A DNA stretch of 64,000 bases from Bacteroidota bacterium (GTDB taxonomy: Bacteria; Bacteroidota; Bacteroidia; NS11-12g; UBA955): assembly GCA_024103355.1 (NCBI GenBank), contig JAGFIU010000011.1:1-64000 (forward strand), given 5' to 3'. The position numbers were made by a program, and so were the translations under genes. The notes beneath the pieces are model-generated. The model had not been told where the DNA came from. It was given only the letters and a program-made list of their open reading frames with translations, and did not search any database. Below, piece after piece: positions 1 to 9,508 of this stretch (positions within the stretch are counted from its first letter, which is position 1; the number at the start of each line of letters is the position of its first letter).

Positions 1-1338
1 GAAACCGCCTAAGCCCCCCAACACACCAACAATACCTCCAACTGTACCGACATCATTAGGATAGTAATTTGAGATATGCTTAAAAACAGCAGCACCGCCA
101 ATGCCCATCATAATACCAATAATAAAAACAAGCATGGTAAAAATCCATTTATTAGCCTGAAAATAAATCAAGGTAACACCTTTAGCCAATAGCTGACCTT
201 TGTTTATATTTTCACCTTCTTTGACCTGTGGCTCTTGCCAAACACGAGTTGATGGCAGAGGCAAAAAACCTTCTCTATCATGATGAATACCAAAACGTAT
301 AGAACTATGATCTTCCTTTGATTGCAACGGATAAACCATCTTATCTTCTTTATTCTGCATATCTGAGATAATAATTTCTGATGCAGTAACAGATTCCACA
401 TAACCTGCTTTTGCAGCCATAATTCCTTGTCCGGGAGTTTGTATTTCAACCCTTGGCGGGAAAAGAAATATCAAGCAAACGATACATACCCCAAAAACCC
501 AAAACATCACAATCCGAGCACCTACTTTATCTGATAAAATACCTCCTACAATTCTGATTAAACCAGCCGGCAAATTGAAGGCTGTAGTCATCATACCTGC
601 TGCCACAATGCTTAGCGCATAAACATTCACAAAATAGGGAATCAGCCATTGAGAAAGCGCAACAAAACTTCCAAAAACAAAAAAATAATATAATCCAAAT
701 CTCCATACTCTTATTTCCTTAAGGGGTGCGAAGCGTTGACCAATTGTTTTTACCACTTCCGGTTTTTTATTGATAGTAAAAATCAGAAAAACAACAGCAA
801 CAACTACTAAAATCACGGCATATAACTGAGGCAAAGTTCTCCAAGCATCTAAGTTGGTATTATTTTGAGTAAAAGACTTCAATAATCCTGGAGCCAACAT
901 GGTTGTAAATGCAGCTCCTACATTACCCGCTCCAAAGATTCCCAATGCTGTACCTTGCTTCTCCTTTGGATACCACAAAGAAACATAAGCAACACCAACT
1001 GCAAATGAACTTCCGGATAATCCAAAGCATAAGCTCAATAATAAAAACATTCCATAACTATCTGCATAAGACAATAAATACATGGGAATAGCACTGAGAA
1101 CCAGAACTATTGTCATCATCCATCTTCCTCCATATTTATCCGTAAGCATTCCGATTGGAAGTCTGAGAACAGATCCTACCAAAACCGGCACACCGAGTAA
1201 CCACCCTATTTGTTCGGTACTCCATTTAAAAATTCCGTTATTTGTCAAAAAAGTAACTAAAACACCATTGATCATCCAAGCAGCAAAACAAACGGTGAAA
1301 GCAAGGAAACTGAGGAATAACATACGGTGAGATTTCAT
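1..1338 (-). CDS. narK: NarK-type nitrate/nitrite transporter (MFS), 3' end outside window
   Basis: The frame is open from an ATG at 1338 to the window edge (446 codons), so the C-terminus is missing. It is an inner-membrane MFS protein for nitrate uptake or nitrate/nitrite exchange. The first half has the Gly-rich nitrate-porter signature (FGLSGSSFAVG, then WYPKEKQGTALG), and the second signature (VGGIVGVLGGLGGF) ends the visible part. Residues about 293-383, between the two transmembrane halves, form a hydrophilic insert that is not part of a normal MFS fold. It contains AKAGYVESVTASEIIIS and VKEGENINKGQLLAKG, which look like the two halves of a barrel-sandwich hybrid domain. The gene is last in the minus-strand nar cluster, 79 bp behind the hemerythrin gene, so it may also have its own promoter. 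NarK assignment is firm; the role of the insert is unknown. Confidence 0.93.
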   Translation of the reverse strand, partial: MKSHRMLFLSFLAFTVCFAAWMINGVLVTFLTNNGIFKWSTEQIGWLLGVPVLVGSVLRLPIGMLTDKYGGRWMMTIVLVLSAIPMYLLSYADSYGMFLLLSLCFGLSGSSFAVGVAYVSLWYPKEKQGTALGIFGAGNVGAAFTTMLAPGLLKSFTQNNTNLDAWRTLPQLYAVILVVVAVVFLIFTINKKPEVVKTIGQRFAPLKEIRVWRFGLYYFFVFGSFVALSQWLIPYFVNVYALSIVAAGMMTTAFNLPAGLIRIVGGILSDKVGARIVMFWVFGVCIVCLIFLFPPRVEIQTPGQGIMAAKAGYVESVTASEIIISDMQNKEDKMVYPLQSKEDHSSIRFGIHHDREGFLPLPSTRVWQEPQVKEGENINKGQLLAKGVTLIYFQANKWIFTMLVFIIGIMMGIGGAAVFKHISNYYPNDVGTVGGIVGVLGGLGGF

Positions 1339-1417: not shown

Positions 1418-2110
1418 CTAATCCAACTTATTCATTTCATTTTCAATGGTATTAAACTCTTCTTGAGTAAGATGTTGATGCGCCAAAGGAAATAAAGTAT
1501 AATCCTCTCGATAAATATGCAGTTTGAGCAGCTCTATCAATTCTCTTCCATTTTCGTAGGCTGTATCAAAAACGAATATTCTTGAAGCAGAATCATTTAT
1601 GCGAGTAGCGACTCCCAAGAGATTAAAAGTAAGTGCACCCAACTGAATAAATTTAATATGGTCATCTTCCATCACATCTATTGCTGTCTTGGGATTTTCA
1701 CCAACACTATGCTCACCTATTTCGATTAATCTTTTGTGTAATAATGGAAACAAAGTTTTTTCTTCTTTTTGATTATGGGGCATTAACTTGTCATCAAAAA
1801 AATTAAAGAAGTCCTTAAATGCTTGATTTATATGTGCATCTAATTTATATCCAAATTTTTTGAATTGAACCAATGCTTTCTCAAACTCTTCAATCTTTTC
1901 TAAAGCTATACCATGCTCTTTCATCAGAATATGAAGCGGTTTTTCAAACCCTTCATATTCTTTCTTATCCATCAATGACAGTTCATAAGCAGAAGGAGGC
2001 TCCATCGGAGTGTGTTCCTCTTTACCCAACTCCTTTTCTACATTGCGCCTGAGTGGGTCAAGAGTATTTAACTTTTGAAGGTCAATTCCGTTCTGTTTAT
2101 GATGTATCAT
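1418..2110 (-). CDS. Hemerythrin-like domain protein of the nar operon
   Basis: This is a 230-residue soluble protein with no signal peptide. Candidate diiron ligands follow the hemerythrin pattern: H60/H66 in helix 1, H112 and E116 (PHNQKEEKTLFP), H151 (EDDHIKF), and H198 with E202 (HIYREDYTLFP). The doubled H-x3-E-x4-LFP motif is typical of the RIC/YtfE-like branch, which is linked to repair of NO-damaged iron centres, but the ScdA_N domain is absent. The first 55 residues are charged and unassigned. It lies downstream of narI and before narK, so a role in protection against NO or nitrite stress during nitrate respiration is inferred from position. Oxygen sensing or iron binding are alternatives. 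Confidence 0.82.
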   Translation of the reverse strand: MIHHKQNGIDLQKLNTLDPLRRNVEKELGKEEHTPMEPPSAYELSLMDKKEYEGFEKPLHILMKEHGIALEKIEEFEKALVQFKKFGYKLDAHINQAFKDFFNFFDDKLMPHNQKEEKTLFPLLHKRLIEIGEHSVGENPKTAIDVMEDDHIKFIQLGALTFNLLGVATRINDSASRIFVFDTAYENGRELIELLKLHIYREDYTLFPLAHQHLTQEEFNTIENEMNKLD

Positions 2111-2132: not shown

Positions 2133-2537
2133 CTACTGTTTAATTAATTTGTATGCTTTGTTTTCTGTACAGATAAAGTACAACCCATTTTCGAAGCCTG
2201 ATAAATCAAGATTTACGGTTCCATTGACTAAATTCCCTTTCCAGACTGTGACCCCGACATAGACCCTATTTACCCCATCTCCAAATGGTGGATAAACAGT
2301 TGCTGTATCAGAAATTATTTTTAAAACATATTTCTGTGAATGAGCATCTGTTGTCTTTGTAACATAACGCGGCAAACCAAAAAATTGATTATAAAATGAA
2401 CCATAGTTATCAGGATCTTCACCCAACCCTTCATTATGCCAATTTCCAAAACCTTTGTTGGAAATTTGTTCTTGAGAGTAACATAGTTGTGTTATCAAAA
2501 TGAGCGCAATAGCACAATTTAATTTTTTTAGATCCAT
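2133..2537 (-). CDS. Small secreted protein with a T9SS-like C-terminal remnant
   Basis: This 134-residue protein starts with a clear signal peptide (MDLKKLNCAIALILITQLCYS). The middle (GFGNWHNEGLGEDPDNYG and YVLKIISDTA) resembles the start of carbohydrate-binding-like PCMD domains. The end, NLDLSGFENGLYFICTENK followed by YKLIKQ, resembles the last third of a type A T9SS sorting domain, but the upstream FPNP half of that domain is missing. It may be an internally deleted remnant of a larger exported protein, or a short protein in its own right. It is embedded in the nar operon between two other genes and has no evident nitrate role. Function is not recognised. Confidence 0.6.
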   Translation of the reverse strand: MDLKKLNCAIALILITQLCYSQEQISNKGFGNWHNEGLGEDPDNYGSFYNQFFGLPRYVTKTTDAHSQKYVLKIISDTATVYPPFGDGVNRVYVGVTVWKGNLVNGTVNLDLSGFENGLYFICTENKAYKLIKQ

Positions 2538-2912: not shown

Positions 2913-3638
2913 TCAATTATTTTTCGATTTTTTTCCAAAAGAATGAGCACGAGATGTGCGAATCGCTTTTCGATTCCAATTCCATACAACCTGCTGATAA
3001 CTTCTCCACAGATAATCAAGCGGATACACAAGAAAGTGCATAAATCTTGTAAAAGGAATAAAAGCAATCAGGGTAAATGCAGACACTACGTGAATTTTTA
3101 GAGACCATGAATTAACACTTGCAATAGCATCAATTTGCGGGTCAAAAACAAAAATTGAACGAATATAAGGCGTTAGAAAAGAAGCAAACCATGAAGAGCC
3201 CCAACGATTGTGATATGCAACCAACAATCCTGATATAATCTGTACAAGGAGAATCAGAAATACAATAACATCCATCTTGCTTGTAACAATCTGTACCCTT
3301 CTGTTTGTCAGACGTCTTTGAACCAACAATATCACTCCAATAAAAGCACTCAAACCAAACGCGAATGCTGTTATTTCCAAAATCAACAGTCTCATTGGTT
3401 CTCCATTCCAAGCCAAAACAGCTTTCGGAAATAAAAATGCAATCAAATGACCAAAAAACAAAACAAAGAGTCCCCAGTGAAAAGGTTGACTACCCCAAAA
3501 CAATCTCCTGCCTTCCAAAAACTGAGATGATATTGAGGAAACCGAAAATCCCCTGCTTTTATAGCGATATATAGAGCCAATGATGAAAATCACTAACGAC
3601 ACATAAGGCAAAACAATGAATAATAGATAGTTTGACAT
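2913..3638 (-). CDS. narI: Respiratory nitrate reductase gamma subunit
   Basis: This is the integral-membrane diheme cytochrome b subunit that passes electrons from quinol to NarH. It has 241 residues and five hydrophobic segments, close to the family norm of about 225-240. The four axial histidines are at H54, H64, H183 and H201. Their spacings (10 and 18 residues) match the H56/H66 and H187/H205 pairs of E. coli NarI. It starts 3 bp after narJ, so translation is probably coupled. The C-terminal tail (about 210-241) is basic and cytoplasmic, as expected for contact with NarGH. Confidence 0.95.
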   Translation of the reverse strand: MSNYLLFIVLPYVSLVIFIIGSIYRYKSRGFSVSSISSQFLEGRRLFWGSQPFHWGLFVLFFGHLIAFLFPKAVLAWNGEPMRLLILEITAFAFGLSAFIGVILLVQRRLTNRRVQIVTSKMDVIVFLILLVQIISGLLVAYHNRWGSSWFASFLTPYIRSIFVFDPQIDAIASVNSWSLKIHVVSAFTLIAFIPFTRFMHFLVYPLDYLWRSYQQVVWNWNRKAIRTSRAHSFGKKSKNN

Positions 3639-3641
3639 AGC

Positions 3642-4364
3642 TTAATCTTGTTTATAGTTATTAATTGAATTATTTTTTTCAAAAACTCTGTTTACTTCAA
3701 CATTCACACTACTTTTATTAAAAAAGGATTTGTGATATTGTTCATCAACTGCCAAATCATGAGCGGCCTTAAATAACACGTGCTCAAAATCTTTCTGCAA
3801 AACTTTTAATAGCACCAAAAGAGCATGTTTATAGACATTTCCGCTATACAACTCCTCTTGAATGATTGCATAATGTCTATTTTTTAAAATCTTGAGTTTA
3901 ATATCCATGCGATAAGGTTCAAACTCTTCCAGCATTTTGTTTACACCGGGAATCAAAATCTTAACTGCCAATTCATCCACCAAACCAGCATCATTTGTCT
4001 TGGTAAAAAAAGTAAGTATATTGCATAAGTTATCCGGCAAATCACTACCACAGTCGTTTCCTGCCAAATCCTGTTCGTGCTTCATGTTTACCAAAAAAAC
4101 ACCTCTTTTATAATCTTCACCAAAAATCACATAGCCTAAATCCAAATAGCATATTGCTTGTACATCAAAAGTTTTTGTAAAAAGTTCTCTTTGTTCGTCT
4201 GAAGAATGGTTAGCGACATAGTCTGCGAATATTTTAAAATCATCATACGCTTCGGGATACCAATCCAATATAACAGACCGACATTGTTCTATCTTATTGC
4301 TAAAATCCGATTCAGGGTATCTGAACAAATTTGCTAATAATATGTAATGACTCAAATTATTCAT
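3642..4364 (-). CDS. narJ: Nitrate reductase molybdenum cofactor assembly chaperone
   Basis: This is a 240-residue NarJ/TorD-family chaperone that binds apo-NarG and supports Mo-bisMGD and FS0 insertion before membrane docking. It is helical and acidic, without signal peptide or cofactor motifs. The N-terminus (LLANLFRYPESDF) and the central DLGYVIFGEDYKRGVFLVNM segment fit the family. It is only 3 bp from both narH and narI, in the standard narGHJI order, which supports the call as much as its sequence does. Confidence 0.92.
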   Translation of the reverse strand: MNNLSHYILLANLFRYPESDFSNKIEQCRSVILDWYPEAYDDFKIFADYVANHSSDEQRELFTKTFDVQAICYLDLGYVIFGEDYKRGVFLVNMKHEQDLAGNDCGSDLPDNLCNILTFFTKTNDAGLVDELAVKILIPGVNKMLEEFEPYRMDIKLKILKNRHYAIIQEELYSGNVYKHALLVLLKVLQKDFEHVLFKAAHDLAVDEQYHKSFFNKSSVNVEVNRVFEKNNSINNYKQD

Positions 4365-4367
4365 ATT

Positions 4368-5858
4368 TTATAAACCTCTGACAGGTCTTTCTTTAAAACC
4401 AAAACCTGTATTTCCTTTAACATCAGCCGTATTTTCAAGCATTTCGATAGACTCTTCACGATGAGCCGGAGGAATCACAAAACGTTCATCAAAAGTTGCA
4501 AGTGATGTAAGCCTAAAAATTGCATCTGCCATATCTGCATTGATATTGACTTCGTCCATAGCTGAAGAAATTTCTTCTTTTGAGATGTCCCCTGTAGTAA
4601 CACCTCGCCTATGAAGGCGCACAGCCATTAATCGCTTCATAACATCAACTATTTTATCAGTATTTCCGGCAGAGAACAAAGAGGCAAGATACTTCATGGG
4701 TAATCGGTTTTTATCCACTCCATTCCAAAGCGATTTACTTGTTGAATCATAAATACCGTCTTGAACCGTTGCCATAGTAGGTAACAAAGCCGGGACATAA
4801 AACAGATTTGGCAATGTTCTGAACTCAGGATGCAACGGCAAAGCGAGTTTCCATACTTTTACAAATTTATAGACCGGAGATTTCTGAGCAGCTTCAATAG
4901 TAGAATCAGCTATACCGTTTAATTTGGCTTGTTCTACCACTGCGGGATCAAACGGGTCTAAATAGATATCAAGATGATTATCTACAAGTTGGTCATCAGA
5001 AGAGGCAGCTACTTTTTCAATTTTGTCTGCATCATAAAGCATCACACCGAGATATCGTATTCTACCAACGCAAGAATGGAAACATGCAGGAGCTTGTCCC
5101 GACTCAAGTCGCGGGTAGCACAAAACGCATTTTTCAGATTTTCCTGTATTCCAATTATAATAACTCTTTTTGTAAGGACAAGCAGTAACACACATCCTCC
5201 ATGCCCTGCAACGCTCTTGATTAATTAGCACAACTCCGTCCTCTCCTCTTTTGTATATTGCTCCAGAAGGACAAGCCGCAACACAAGCAGGGTTAAGGCA
5301 ATGATTACAAATCCTTGGCAGATAATGGAAAGTCATACGCTCTAACTGAAACATTGCTTCTTGTTCAGCAGGTGTGAGTTTTTCCAAATTAACATCCTGA
5401 CGCGCATAATCGGGCGAACCACCCATATCATCATCCCAATTTGGCCCGGCTTTAACATCAATATGTTCGCCCGTAACCAAGGAAATTGGTCGAGCGGTGG
5501 GCTGGTCATCTCCTTCGGGTGCCGTAAATAAATCCTGATATTTATAAGTCCAAGGTTCATAATAGTCGTCAAGTACCGGTAAATGAGGGTTATGAAAAAT
5601 ATTTTTCAATCCTTTGAATTTGCCTGCTCCTTTGAGAGAAACAGAATCTCCGTTTTTTTCCCAGCCGCCTTTGTATATTTCCTGATCCTCCCATTTAGTT
5701 GGATAGCCTGTCCCGGGCTTTGTTTCTACATTATTCCACCACATATACTCTGCACCTTTGCGGTCTGTCCAAATGTTCTTACATGCAATAGAACAAGTAT
5801 GACATCCGATACATTTATCAAGATGAAAAACCATTGAAACTTGTGATCTAATATCCAT
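4368..5858 (-). CDS. narH: Respiratory nitrate reductase beta subunit
   Basis: This is the cytoplasmic iron-sulfur subunit carrying FS1-FS4 between NarI and NarG; its 496 residues match the family length. The first cluster motif is C16, C19, C22 and C26 (CIGCHTCSIAC). Later clusters are CNHCLNPACVAACP, the CRAWRMCVTACP motif, and CVLCYPRLESGQAPAC. The tryptophan in CRAWRMC replaces a cysteine, the known hallmark of the [3Fe-4S] centre in NarH. It follows narG by 26 bp and precedes narJ. Confidence 0.97.
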   Translation of the reverse strand: MDIRSQVSMVFHLDKCIGCHTCSIACKNIWTDRKGAEYMWWNNVETKPGTGYPTKWEDQEIYKGGWEKNGDSVSLKGAGKFKGLKNIFHNPHLPVLDDYYEPWTYKYQDLFTAPEGDDQPTARPISLVTGEHIDVKAGPNWDDDMGGSPDYARQDVNLEKLTPAEQEAMFQLERMTFHYLPRICNHCLNPACVAACPSGAIYKRGEDGVVLINQERCRAWRMCVTACPYKKSYYNWNTGKSEKCVLCYPRLESGQAPACFHSCVGRIRYLGVMLYDADKIEKVAASSDDQLVDNHLDIYLDPFDPAVVEQAKLNGIADSTIEAAQKSPVYKFVKVWKLALPLHPEFRTLPNLFYVPALLPTMATVQDGIYDSTSKSLWNGVDKNRLPMKYLASLFSAGNTDKIVDVMKRLMAVRLHRRGVTTGDISKEEISSAMDEVNINADMADAIFRLTSLATFDERFVIPPAHREESIEMLENTADVKGNTGFGFKERPVRGL

Positions 5859-5884: not shown

Positions 5885-8800
5885 TTAAAATTCGACTCTA
5901 TCCATTTTTCTAACAAGAACGTGTGTATCTCTGTTAGCTCCAACCGGACCCCAATAATTGAAATGAAATGAAAACTGTCCATAACCGCCAGTCATTAAGT
6001 TGGGTTTCAAATGAACTCGGGTAAAACTATTATGTCCACCTGCCCTTCGATTTCCACGAACTTGAGATTTGGGAATTGAGTATGTTCTTTCAGGTGAGTG
6101 ATAAACAATACAAACTCCTTTTGGAATTCTTGCACTTACACATGCACGCGTACAATAAACGCCATGGTCATTATACACTTCAACCCAATCATTGTCCTTG
6201 ATCCCCAATTCAGCAGCATCTTCTTCACTCATCCAACAAGGTTCTATACCACGCGAAAGTGTTAACATCCTTAAGGTATCACCATAGGTCGAATGTATAT
6301 GCCATTTCCCGTGAGGAGTTAGCACATTAAGTACTTTCGCTTTTCCGTCATTTACTGTTTTTCTAATATCACCATATACCTGAGGAGTGGGAGAAGGTTT
6401 ATAAGTGGCTAAGTTTTCTCCAAACTCAAGATAGCCGTCATGGTCTAAATAAAAATGTTGACGACCTGTTAAAGTCCGCCATGGCACAAGCCTATCTACA
6501 TTGTAGGTATATGCACAATAAGCTCTTCCATTATTCATAAGCCCCGACCAAAGAGGTGAATTATTATACCTTCTGGGTTGAGCTTGCAAATCTTTATAAT
6601 CAATTTTCACATCCTTACTTCCTTCTCCTAAATCCACAAGAGAAAGACCTGTTTTCTTTTCCATATTTTGATAAGCTCTGACGGTTAGTTTACCATTGGT
6701 AAGAGTTGACAATGTAAGAACAGCATTTACTGCTTCAACATCTTCTTTGATTGATGGATATTCTACACCGTTGACTTTCTGCACATGTCGTTTGTCCTGC
6801 AGCATTTCGTTGTAAACGTCTTCAGCCATAAATGAAACACCATGTGCCCCCAAAGGTTTAGAATTCATGTTTGGACCTAAAGAAATGTACTTGTTATAAA
6901 TCTGGGTATAGTCTCTGTCAATGAAAACAAGTTTGTGCATAGATTTTCCCGGAATTGGTTCACATTCGCCTTTTGCCCAATCTAACATTCTTGGCTGTGT
7001 AATTTCATCTGCTGAGTCATGAGATAATGGGGTATTTATTACATCTTTAATCGGTTCAGGCAAATGGGTACAAGCCAATTCACTGACTTTCTTTGCCAAA
7101 GCCTGAAAAATCTGCCAATCAGATTTTGATTCCCACACAGGGGCTACTGCTGCCGAAAGTGGATGTATAAATGAATGTAAATCTGTAGAGTTAATATCAG
7201 CTTTCTCATACCACGATGCGGTTGCGAGAACAATATCTGAATATAATGCCGAAGTATCCATTCGGAAATTAATATCCACAATCAAATCCATTTTACCTTT
7301 AGGAGCTTCGCGCCAAATTAATTCATGAACATGGGGTTGAGCCACTTCATCCGCAATCTTATTATTATGAGTTCCAAGATAATGGTCAAGCATATATTCA
7401 TGTCCTTTTGCACTTGACATGAGTGCATTGCCGCGCCAGATAAACCAATTTCTGGGAAAATTAATTTCAGCATCGGGGTCAGCTACCGAGTGTAAAAGCT
7501 CTTTTGATTTTAATTTTTCAACAATATGATTACGGATTTCATCTTCATCTTTAGCGCCCGCAGCAATGGCATCATTGATAATTTCCTGATTTGCTTTATT
7601 GTATTGAGGAAAGAACGGCATCCACCCATTTCTTACAGACATAACGGTCCAATCAGCAGAGTGCATTTTGCCATACTTGCTGTCTTTTGGGACTTTGTTA
7701 TACTCAACCTGATTGTTGTCATAACGCCATTGGTCAGAGTTGATATAATGCCAAATAGGAGCTTGTTGAAGTCTGTTTGCAGGAATCCAATCTTTTGCAG
7801 CCATGATAGTACCCCATGAATCAACAGGAGCTAATTTTTCCTGACCCACATAGTGATTCATACCTCCACCATTCACCCCATTGCACCCGGTTAGCATCTG
7901 TGCCATTATTGCTGCACGGTACATCAGATTACCATGAAACCAGTGATTGATGGCTGCTCCCACAATAACCATACATTTTCCATTGGTAATTTCTGCCGTA
8001 TCAGCCCATTCATGAGCAAATTTGATAACTGTTTCTCTGCCAACTCCGGTAAAGATTTCTTGCCAAGCAGGCGTGTATGCTTGATTTTTATCATTGTAAT
8101 CTGTCGGGTATTCACCGGGCAAGCCTCTACCAACTCCATACTGCCCCATGGTTAGATCATAAATCGTTGCAACCGGCACCTTTTTTCCATCTATTGTATT
8201 AATTAACCTAACAGGAACACCACGAAGCGAAGTTTTGTCTAACCCAAATTCAATAAATTCAACATTATAGACATCATCACTATGATTCAACAAGGTCAAT
8301 GTAGGGTCATAGGGCTTATTATCTAAGAAATCTTCATATTTCAAATTCCAATTTCCTTTTTTATCTTCAGCCCAGCGACTCCCCATTGTTCCCTTAGGAC
8401 AAACAAGTTCGCCTGATTTTGAGTCAATATTCAAAAACTGCCAATCTCCATTTTCTACCTCTTTATACTTTTGAACCCTATTAGCTCTTAACATTCTTCC
8501 TGGCTTATAGTTTTCTCCAACTTTTTCAAGTTCAACAAGAAAGGGACAATCGGTATATTTTTTAACGTAATCAATGAAATAGGGTACTTGTCTGTCTGCA
8601 TGGTATTCTTTCAAAATAACATGTGTAACCCCCATCCAAAACGCACCATCAGAACCGGCATGACAAGGAATCCATTGGTCAGCATGTTTAGCAACCATAC
8701 TAAAGTCAGGCGACATCACAACTGTTTTGGTTCCATTGTGCTTTGATTCAGAGAAGAAATGAATATCGGGCGTTCTTGTCATTCCAAGATTTGCACCCAT

Positions 8801-9508
8801 TGAAACACAAAATTTAGAATTGTACCAATCAGCACTTTCGCACACATCGGTTTGTTCTCCCCATACCTCCGGAAACGCAGGAGGTAAGTCACAATACCAA
8901 TCATAAAAGCTAAGATTCACTCCACCCATAAGTTGGAGATAACGAGCTCCGGAAGCATAGCTAAGCATTGACATTGCAGGGATTGGCGAAAAACCGATAA
9001 TTCTATCGGAACCATATTTCTTGATAGTATAAATATTTGCTGCAGCAATAAGTTCTAACACTTCATTCCATTTTGCCCGTCTAAAACCACCTTTTCCTCT
9101 TGCTCGTTGATATCTTTTTCTTTTTTCAGGATTATTTTGTAAATTTTCCCATGCTTTCACAGGATCTCCTCCCGCATTTTTCTTTTCTTCATTGTATAAA
9201 TCCATAAGTGCTCCGCGCATCAACGGATATTTCACCCTGATTGGACTATATAAATACCATGAATAGGAAATTCCTCGTTGACACCCTCTGGGTTCATAAG
9301 GTGGTAAGGTATTCTCAAGTAATGGGTAATCAAGTGCTTGGGTTTCCCATACTACAATTCCATCCTTAACATGAATATTCCAAGAACACCCACCTGTGCA
9401 GTTGACACCGTGTGTACTGCGGACAACCTTATCATACTGCCAACGGTTGCGATAAAACTCTTCCCATTTTCTGGTTTGTGGCGATATTATGTCTTCGATC
9501 CAACTCAT
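5885..9508 (-). CDS. narG: Respiratory nitrate reductase alpha subunit (Mo-bisMGD)
   Basis: This 1207-residue catalytic subunit reduces nitrate to nitrite at a molybdenum bis-MGD centre. The FS0 [4Fe-4S] ligands H33, C37, C41 and C76 have exactly the spacing of E. coli H49/C53/C57/C92. The molybdenum ligand is expected at Asp 207 (WYCDLPP), followed by [12 protein letters not shown]. There is no twin-arginine signal, so this is the cytoplasm-facing, membrane-bound Nar type rather than Nap or the exported archaeal form. The end ([12 protein letters not shown]) is typical. It lies 19 bp after the cytochrome c gene. No frameshift is seen. Confidence 0.98.

Follow-up and report, generated by a model that had tools for sequence, protein, structure and literature searches.

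A barrel-sandwich hybrid domain resembling RNA polymerase beta in the TM9-TM10 loop of a NarK1 clade of nitrate transporters

A large clade of NarK1-type nitrate transporters of the major facilitator superfamily (MFS) harbors an additional folded domain between transmembrane segments (TM) 9 and 10, for which RNA polymerase beta (RpoB) is the best match by sequence and by predicted fold. It is encoded at one end of the window, i.e. the whole stretch of 64,000 nucleotides from a Bacteroidota bacterium that was analyzed here. An RpoB-like domain on the outer face of NarK1 is apparently undescribed. No earlier description of a NarK with a barrel-sandwich domain was found in the open-access literature, and the accessible parts of two papers dealing with NarK1/NarK2 function describe no such domain (PMC5217062, PMC6394727).

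The narK gene and its operon

The narK frame starts with an ATG at position 1338 of the minus strand and remains open for 446 residues up to the contig end (Table 1). Base 1 of the window is base 1 of contig C29, and narK is cut by this contig start; the window copy ends within TM11. The interruption is a product of the assembly and the gene is not broken, because its C terminus (~50 residues) is found on contig C31 (G000:C31:2-154), whose first 19 bases are the same as those at the end of the window's narK (window 1-19 = G000:C31:1-19). With the 3' end recovered there, a truncated narK pseudogene is ruled out. The break falls at a stretch encoding GGLGGF, where C31 can be joined through the 19-base overlap.

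A same-genus relative encodes a complete NarK of 502 residues with 88% identity to the window copy. Its full-length AF2 model (alignment of 32 sequences, mean pLDDT 84) displays 12 TM segments in an MFS fold, with E. coli NarK/NarU as the top fold matches (Z 45-47; Z 47 to 4iu8). For the window protein, TIGR00886 is the best-scoring family; its score of 198 bits lies below the cut-off of 311.7, with the protein truncated and the match ending at the insert. On the tree, in which five NarK2 form the outgroup, the window protein groups with hairpin-bearing NarK1 of Pseudomonadota. Homology and the narGHJI operon context together point to a nitrate transporter.

Table 1. Features of the window around narK (residue numbers refer to the window NarK)
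Feature	Position	Strand	Details
narK, NarK1-type MFS nitrate transporter (by homology and operon context)	1..1338	minus	residues 1-446; TIGR00886, E=2e-58
Inserted domain, TM9-TM10, predicted extracytoplasmic	145..456	minus	residues 295-398, ~104 residues; predicted barrel-sandwich hybrid on beta-hairpin
Second half-motif WQEPQVKEGENINKGQLLAKGVTLIYF	160..240	minus	residues 367-393; aligns with RpoB NQRPIVxxGDxVxxGQxxAxG
Clade-specific loop IRFGIHHDREGFL	262..300	minus	residues 347-359; 11-member clade only; partly low pLDDT
First half-motif GIMAAKAGYVESVTASEIIISD	361..426	minus	residues 305-326; aligns with RpoB GxVxxVxxxxIxV
Hemerythrin HHE-domain protein, adjoins narK	1418..2110	minus	PF01814, 3.2e-15
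NarI, nitrate reductase gamma subunit	2913..3638	minus	PF02665, 2.2e-61
NarJ-like assembly chaperone	3642..4364	minus	position and synteny with NarJ-like genes in relatives only
NarH, nitrate reductase beta subunit	4368..5858	minus	ferredoxin-type cysteine motifs, synteny
NarG, nitrate reductase catalytic subunit	5885..9508	minus	PF00384, PF01568

The genes are arranged in the order narGHJI, hemerythrin gene, narK. No Tat signal was seen in the sequence of the NarG N terminus; the enzyme is probably cytoplasmic, and nitrate would therefore have to be imported. Nitrate/proton symport has been put forward as the role of NarK1 proteins (PMC5217062, PMC6394727). Between narI and the hemerythrin gene, two small ORFs (window 2133-2537 and 2559-2906; 134 and 115 aa) are located, which gave no Pfam match. 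In two gammaproteobacterial MAGs, a domain-bearing NarK is fused C-terminally to a hemerythrin domain (L098:3964-5887, L090:626-2533; PF01814, 7.8e-12 for L098).

Position, fold, and affinity of the inserted domain

The domain begins at residue 295 (P of PRVEIQ) and ends at residue 398 (W of FQANKW). A sequence-only reading of the window had drawn attention to a polar block interrupting the MFS protein in this region, and the block is indeed present. Its placement between the two MFS halves proved wrong, because the halves meet at TM6-7 and the AF2 TM assignment puts the insert between TM9 and TM10; in the complete relative, TM9 spans residues 274-292, the beta domain 296-394, and TM10 397-425. 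The MFS motif GGxLSDKxGAR, which is cytoplasmic across the superfamily, is located in the preceding TM8-9 loop, and the TM9-10 insert is therefore assigned to the extracytoplasmic side. Its reading frame is open in 113/113 relatives. Between the window and the same-genus relative, the insert is under purifying selection (dN 0.11, dS 1.44); for the rest of narK, the same pair gives dN 0.07 and a dS of about 2.6, which is saturated.

Modeled alone with 108 relatives, the insert reaches a mean pLDDT of 84, with core blocks at 89-96 and residues 54-60 of the insert below 50. The structure prediction suggested by the sequence-only reading thus returned a confident fold instead of a disordered loop, and the model firmly supports membership of the barrel-sandwich hybrid superfamily. 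The two quoted motifs were likewise correctly recognized as the paired halves of such a hybrid. A disordered linker is ruled out by the pLDDT values together with the conservation of the insert, in which, beyond the folding glycines, W73, P68, F99, A101, N102, and W104 are near-invariant over many phyla.

Two analogies had been offered for this fold, a lipoyl/biotinyl-type and an RNA polymerase beta-like one, of which the latter turned out to be the better, as it provides the best PDB match in sequence as well as in fold. A profile of the 108 inserts alone, searched against all PDB sequences, ranked RNA polymerase beta first across the whole PDB; the top match (6wmp_C) is of modest significance, with E=4e-4 and 0.0024 for the best domain alone. 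RNA polymerase beta chains fill the first 38 PDB rows, matched always around E. coli positions 713-787, and the best match outside the polymerases, at E=0.29, is to a lipoyl domain. A smaller profile of 32 insert sequences matched RpoB exclusively (best E 0.033). On the structural side, RNA polymerase accounts for all 50 of the matches listed for the insert model by Foldseek (best E=8e-4) and for all 50 listed by VIA (Z 9.2-10.4, 66-73 residues, 2.2-3.3 A); such match counts, unlike the E-values, are inflated by the large share of RpoB entries in the PDB. The VIA match to the E. coli ~713-787 segment has a Z of about 10 and 2.5 A over 68 residues. Profile comparison by hhalign gave a probability of 94% over 60 columns for Bacteroidota RpoB and 68% over 15 columns for biotinyl domains, the control set of five column-shuffled profiles staying below 1% throughout.

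The matched RpoB segment, situated within the Pfam Rpb2 domain 6 region, has in common with the insert both the fold and the signature QxPxVxxGDxVxxxQxxAxG. In contrast to this segment, the insert stands alone in the extracytoplasmic loop of a transporter, with no transcription context, and possesses a conserved tryptophan and an invariant proline that are absent from RpoB. RnfC_N and biotin/lipoyl domains belong to the same superfamily, but their match to the insert is weaker than that of RpoB, and their cofactor lysine is missing from it. Weak matches of single insert members extend to the RnfC_N, M23, and biotin/lipoyl families as well, which shows how permissive the superfamily is; RpoB descent is therefore not proved, though the insert probably derives from an RpoB-type domain rather than from another hybrid domain. 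No Pfam family scores above its own cut-off on the insert, a plasmid search with the insert alone gave no match, and a search for the RnfC_N family in 20 relatives gave few. An M23/LytM peptidase reading is unsupported, the weak Pfam match being short and partial.

Distribution and origin

Within one large NarK1 clade, the insert is the rule, not a rarity: it was found in 113/113 members, with no loss. The survey of Bacteroidota NarK that the sequence-only reading had proposed found it in all 32 sequences from the relatives and the phylum of the window. It is likewise present in 80/80 loci from a genome collection scanned with a full-length NarK alignment; because these are the 80 top-scoring matches to a query that itself bears the domain, they do not show how common the domain is among NarK1s in general. 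According to the record titles, the hosts comprise Bacteroidota, Chloroflexota, Gemmatimonadota, Zixibacteria, Planctomycetota, Acidobacteriota, Omnitrophota, the Cyanobacteria/Melainabacteria group, Armatimonadota, delta- and gammaproteobacterial MAGs, and two euryarchaeal MAGs, a list in which individual MAGs are possibly contaminated. The two archaeal sequences pair together on the tree. Both (L139, L140) have a cysteine-rich C-terminal tail (CPPxCTMQC), for which a Pfam search with L139 gave no match.

Sister NarK1s, which include most of those from Pseudomonadota and Deinococcota, have a beta-hairpin of 22-28 residues at the insert site. In a draw of 299 genomes centered on a gammaproteobacterial domain-bearing genome, 40 genomes contained a strong NarK1 match, and a TM9-10 segment of 22-28 residues was measured in 30/30 loci taken (the seed genome's own excluded; the remaining ten matching genomes were inspected in part). 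The short form also occurs in proteins of P. aeruginosa, Roseomonas, Thermus, and Deinococcus. A Chloroflexota draw delivered, besides the protein of the seed genome, one further domain-bearing protein and a single hairpin form; its many distant proteins have 4-5 residues at TM9-10. In a FastTree tree of 399 columns from which the insert columns had been removed, all 113 domain-bearing proteins form one exact split (support 0.99), and this clade joins the pseudomonadotal hairpin proteins at support 1.0; the Thermus/Deinococcus hairpin proteins lie outside this group, with a weak placement (0.24). The simplest reading of this tree is that the domain was gained once on a pre-existing hairpin and then passed on by inheritance and transfer.

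The closest known transporters are NarK1-type proteins such as P. aeruginosa NarK1, the N-terminal half of Paracoccus NarK, and NasA, which have the same MFS core (40-50% identity over TM1-9), are sisters on the tree, occur in nar/nas operon contexts, and carry the TM9-10 hairpin at the insert site. Compared with the domain clade, in which the domain measures ~90-115 residues, the P. aeruginosa-type proteins have only the hairpin of 22-28 residues as well as shorter TM1-2 and usually shorter TM5-6 loops. E. coli NarK/NarU and other NarK2 exchangers resemble the membrane part in their MFS fold, but they form a distant clade without a TM9-10 domain (11-12 residues in the NarK2s compared). A large extra loop in a nitrate MFS transporter is also a feature of Aspergillus CRNA/NrtA, where an insert of ~90 residues (residues 221-310) is predicted to be intracellular (PMC5217062); the NarK1 insert, in contrast, lies extracytoplasmically at TM9-10.

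Possible roles of the domain in transport

Domain-bearing and hairpin proteins differ further in loops away from the insert. The TM1-2 loop comprises 17 residues in 113/113 domain-bearing proteins and 15 in 36/36 hairpin proteins, and the TM5-6 loop 25-27 residues in 113/113 versus a median of 19 (it is long in four hairpin proteins of the Thermus/Deinococcus group, too). Both are outward-facing loops of the N-terminal half, opposite the half that bears the domain. The cytoplasmic loops TM2-3, TM4-5, TM8-9, and TM10-11 show no difference, and the TM6-7 linker is shorter in domain-bearing proteins (median 30 vs 37). As loop changes and insert lie on one branch, their co-occurrence is one event and amounts to no statistical test.

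A regulatory or gating role, already considered by the sequence-only reading, is possible and is the one preferred here. It is proposed that in the ancestor of the large NarK1 clade the tip of the TM9-TM10 hairpin acquired an RpoB-related barrel-sandwich domain in a single graft, and that the domain-bearing narK then spread over many phyla. Anchored on the C-terminal half beside the pore-lining TM10, the domain would pack against the lengthened TM1-2 and TM5-6 loops of the N-terminal half and, acting as an outer lid or brace, would shape the opening and closing of the outer gate. Lengthened outward loops opposite the domain are what a lid or brace over this gate would need. Also in its favor, the domain is kept with respiratory as well as assimilatory-looking reductases, and without NarK2. 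This explanation as a whole comes close to an even chance without reaching it, and the lid or brace role in the transport cycle, taken by itself, is put forward a little more tentatively still.

The gene neighborhoods bear on this role and on its rivals. Among the 80 loci, at least one narGHJI-like match, in some cases a weak one, is in reach in 56, and a NarK2-like gene lies within ~4 kb of narK in 57. The loci L096, L107, and L136 have, judged on sequence starts, assimilatory-looking nitrate reductase genes near narK and no second transporter in reach; since the domain is kept there, its core is not tied to one partner. In L132, L136, and L138 (Flavobacterium, Tamlana), response-regulator genes are found upstream of narK, accompanied in L136 and L138 by a probable sensor kinase (sequence starts), which suggests nitrate-responsive control.

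Eleven NarK proteins, including that of the window, form a clade (0.998) with an extra domain loop, IRFGIHHDxEGFL, which varies in some members. In 11/11 members, a gene for a SLAC1-family anion channel adjoins narK and no NarK2 is in reach; the family assignment was made in the same-genus relative (PF03595, 4e-48). This SLAC1/TehA-family gene lies directly downstream of narK (G000:C31:176-1201, i.e. L145; L146:7976-9013), in the place that NarK2 takes in other relatives. Across the 80 loci, SLAC1 and NarK2 tend to be mutually exclusive, SLAC1 occurring in nine of the 23 without NarK2 and in one of the 57 that have it (Fisher p=3e-5, a significance that relatedness inflates). The channel is a lead as candidate nitrite exit; a literature search on SLAC1/TehA with nitrite found nothing relevant.

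Such neighbors would fit a domain that docks a partner transporter or channel releasing nitrite, NarK2 in most loci and SLAC1 in the clade of the window, the more so as this clade, devoid of a neighboring NarK2, is the sole bearer of the extra loop. Moreover, NarK1-NarK2 fusions with functional interdependence are known (PMC5217062, PMC6394727). Docking is nevertheless considered unlikely: the core domain is kept where neither partner is in reach, as in the three loci just named, domain-less NarK1s are also in tandem with or fused to NarK2, and the link between loop and SLAC1 comes from a single clade and hence one event. The same three loci weaken the earlier idea of an adaptor to another envelope protein as a general role, as does the presence of the domain in monoderm Chloroflexota and the two archaeal MAGs. 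Equally unlikely is a structural stabilizer or folding module of the TM9-10 hairpin without a role in transport, i.e. a product of constructive neutral evolution. One ancient gain that was simply inherited ever since would leave the same picture, and sister NarK1s do exist without the domain, but the near-invariant residues across many phyla and the lack of any loss in 113 members count against it. A combined version, in which a gate element descended from RNA polymerase was recruited once and the His-His-Asp-Glu loop of the window clade couples the importer to a SLAC1 channel replacing NarK2 as nitrite exit, is improbable as a whole. Slightly less probable again is a sensor of an extracytoplasmic ligand (nitrate, nitrite, or a metal) that tunes uptake; the exposed position and the His-His-Asp-Glu loop would suit it, but no conserved pocket signature was seen, the loop is confined to 11 sequences and modeled at low confidence, and the matched RpoB segment is not known to bind a small molecule. 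A lipoyl/biotinyl carrier with a covalent cofactor, the functional sense of the second analogy, shares the superfamily fold and has weak Biotin_lipoyl matches in 19/108 members, but it is rejected as having virtually no chance, since the 108 inserts lack an invariant lysine in a turn of the EAMKM or DKA type (most members have K, R, or Q at position 92, which follows LLA), the insert lies outside the membrane away from the lipoyl and biotin ligases, and the biotinyl sequence match is shorter and weaker than that of RpoB.

NarK1 has been modeled on the domain-less E. coli NarK, yet the domain is present in many nitrate-respiring and -assimilating phyla. A domain from a fold family of the transcription machinery appears to have been inserted in a membrane transporter and to have become fixed in different phyla thereafter. 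As the domain is well delimited and can be removed, and sisters lacking it exist in nature, its contribution to nitrate uptake is directly testable, and the exchange of NarK2 for SLAC1 in the window's clade suggests a candidate route for nitrite exit.
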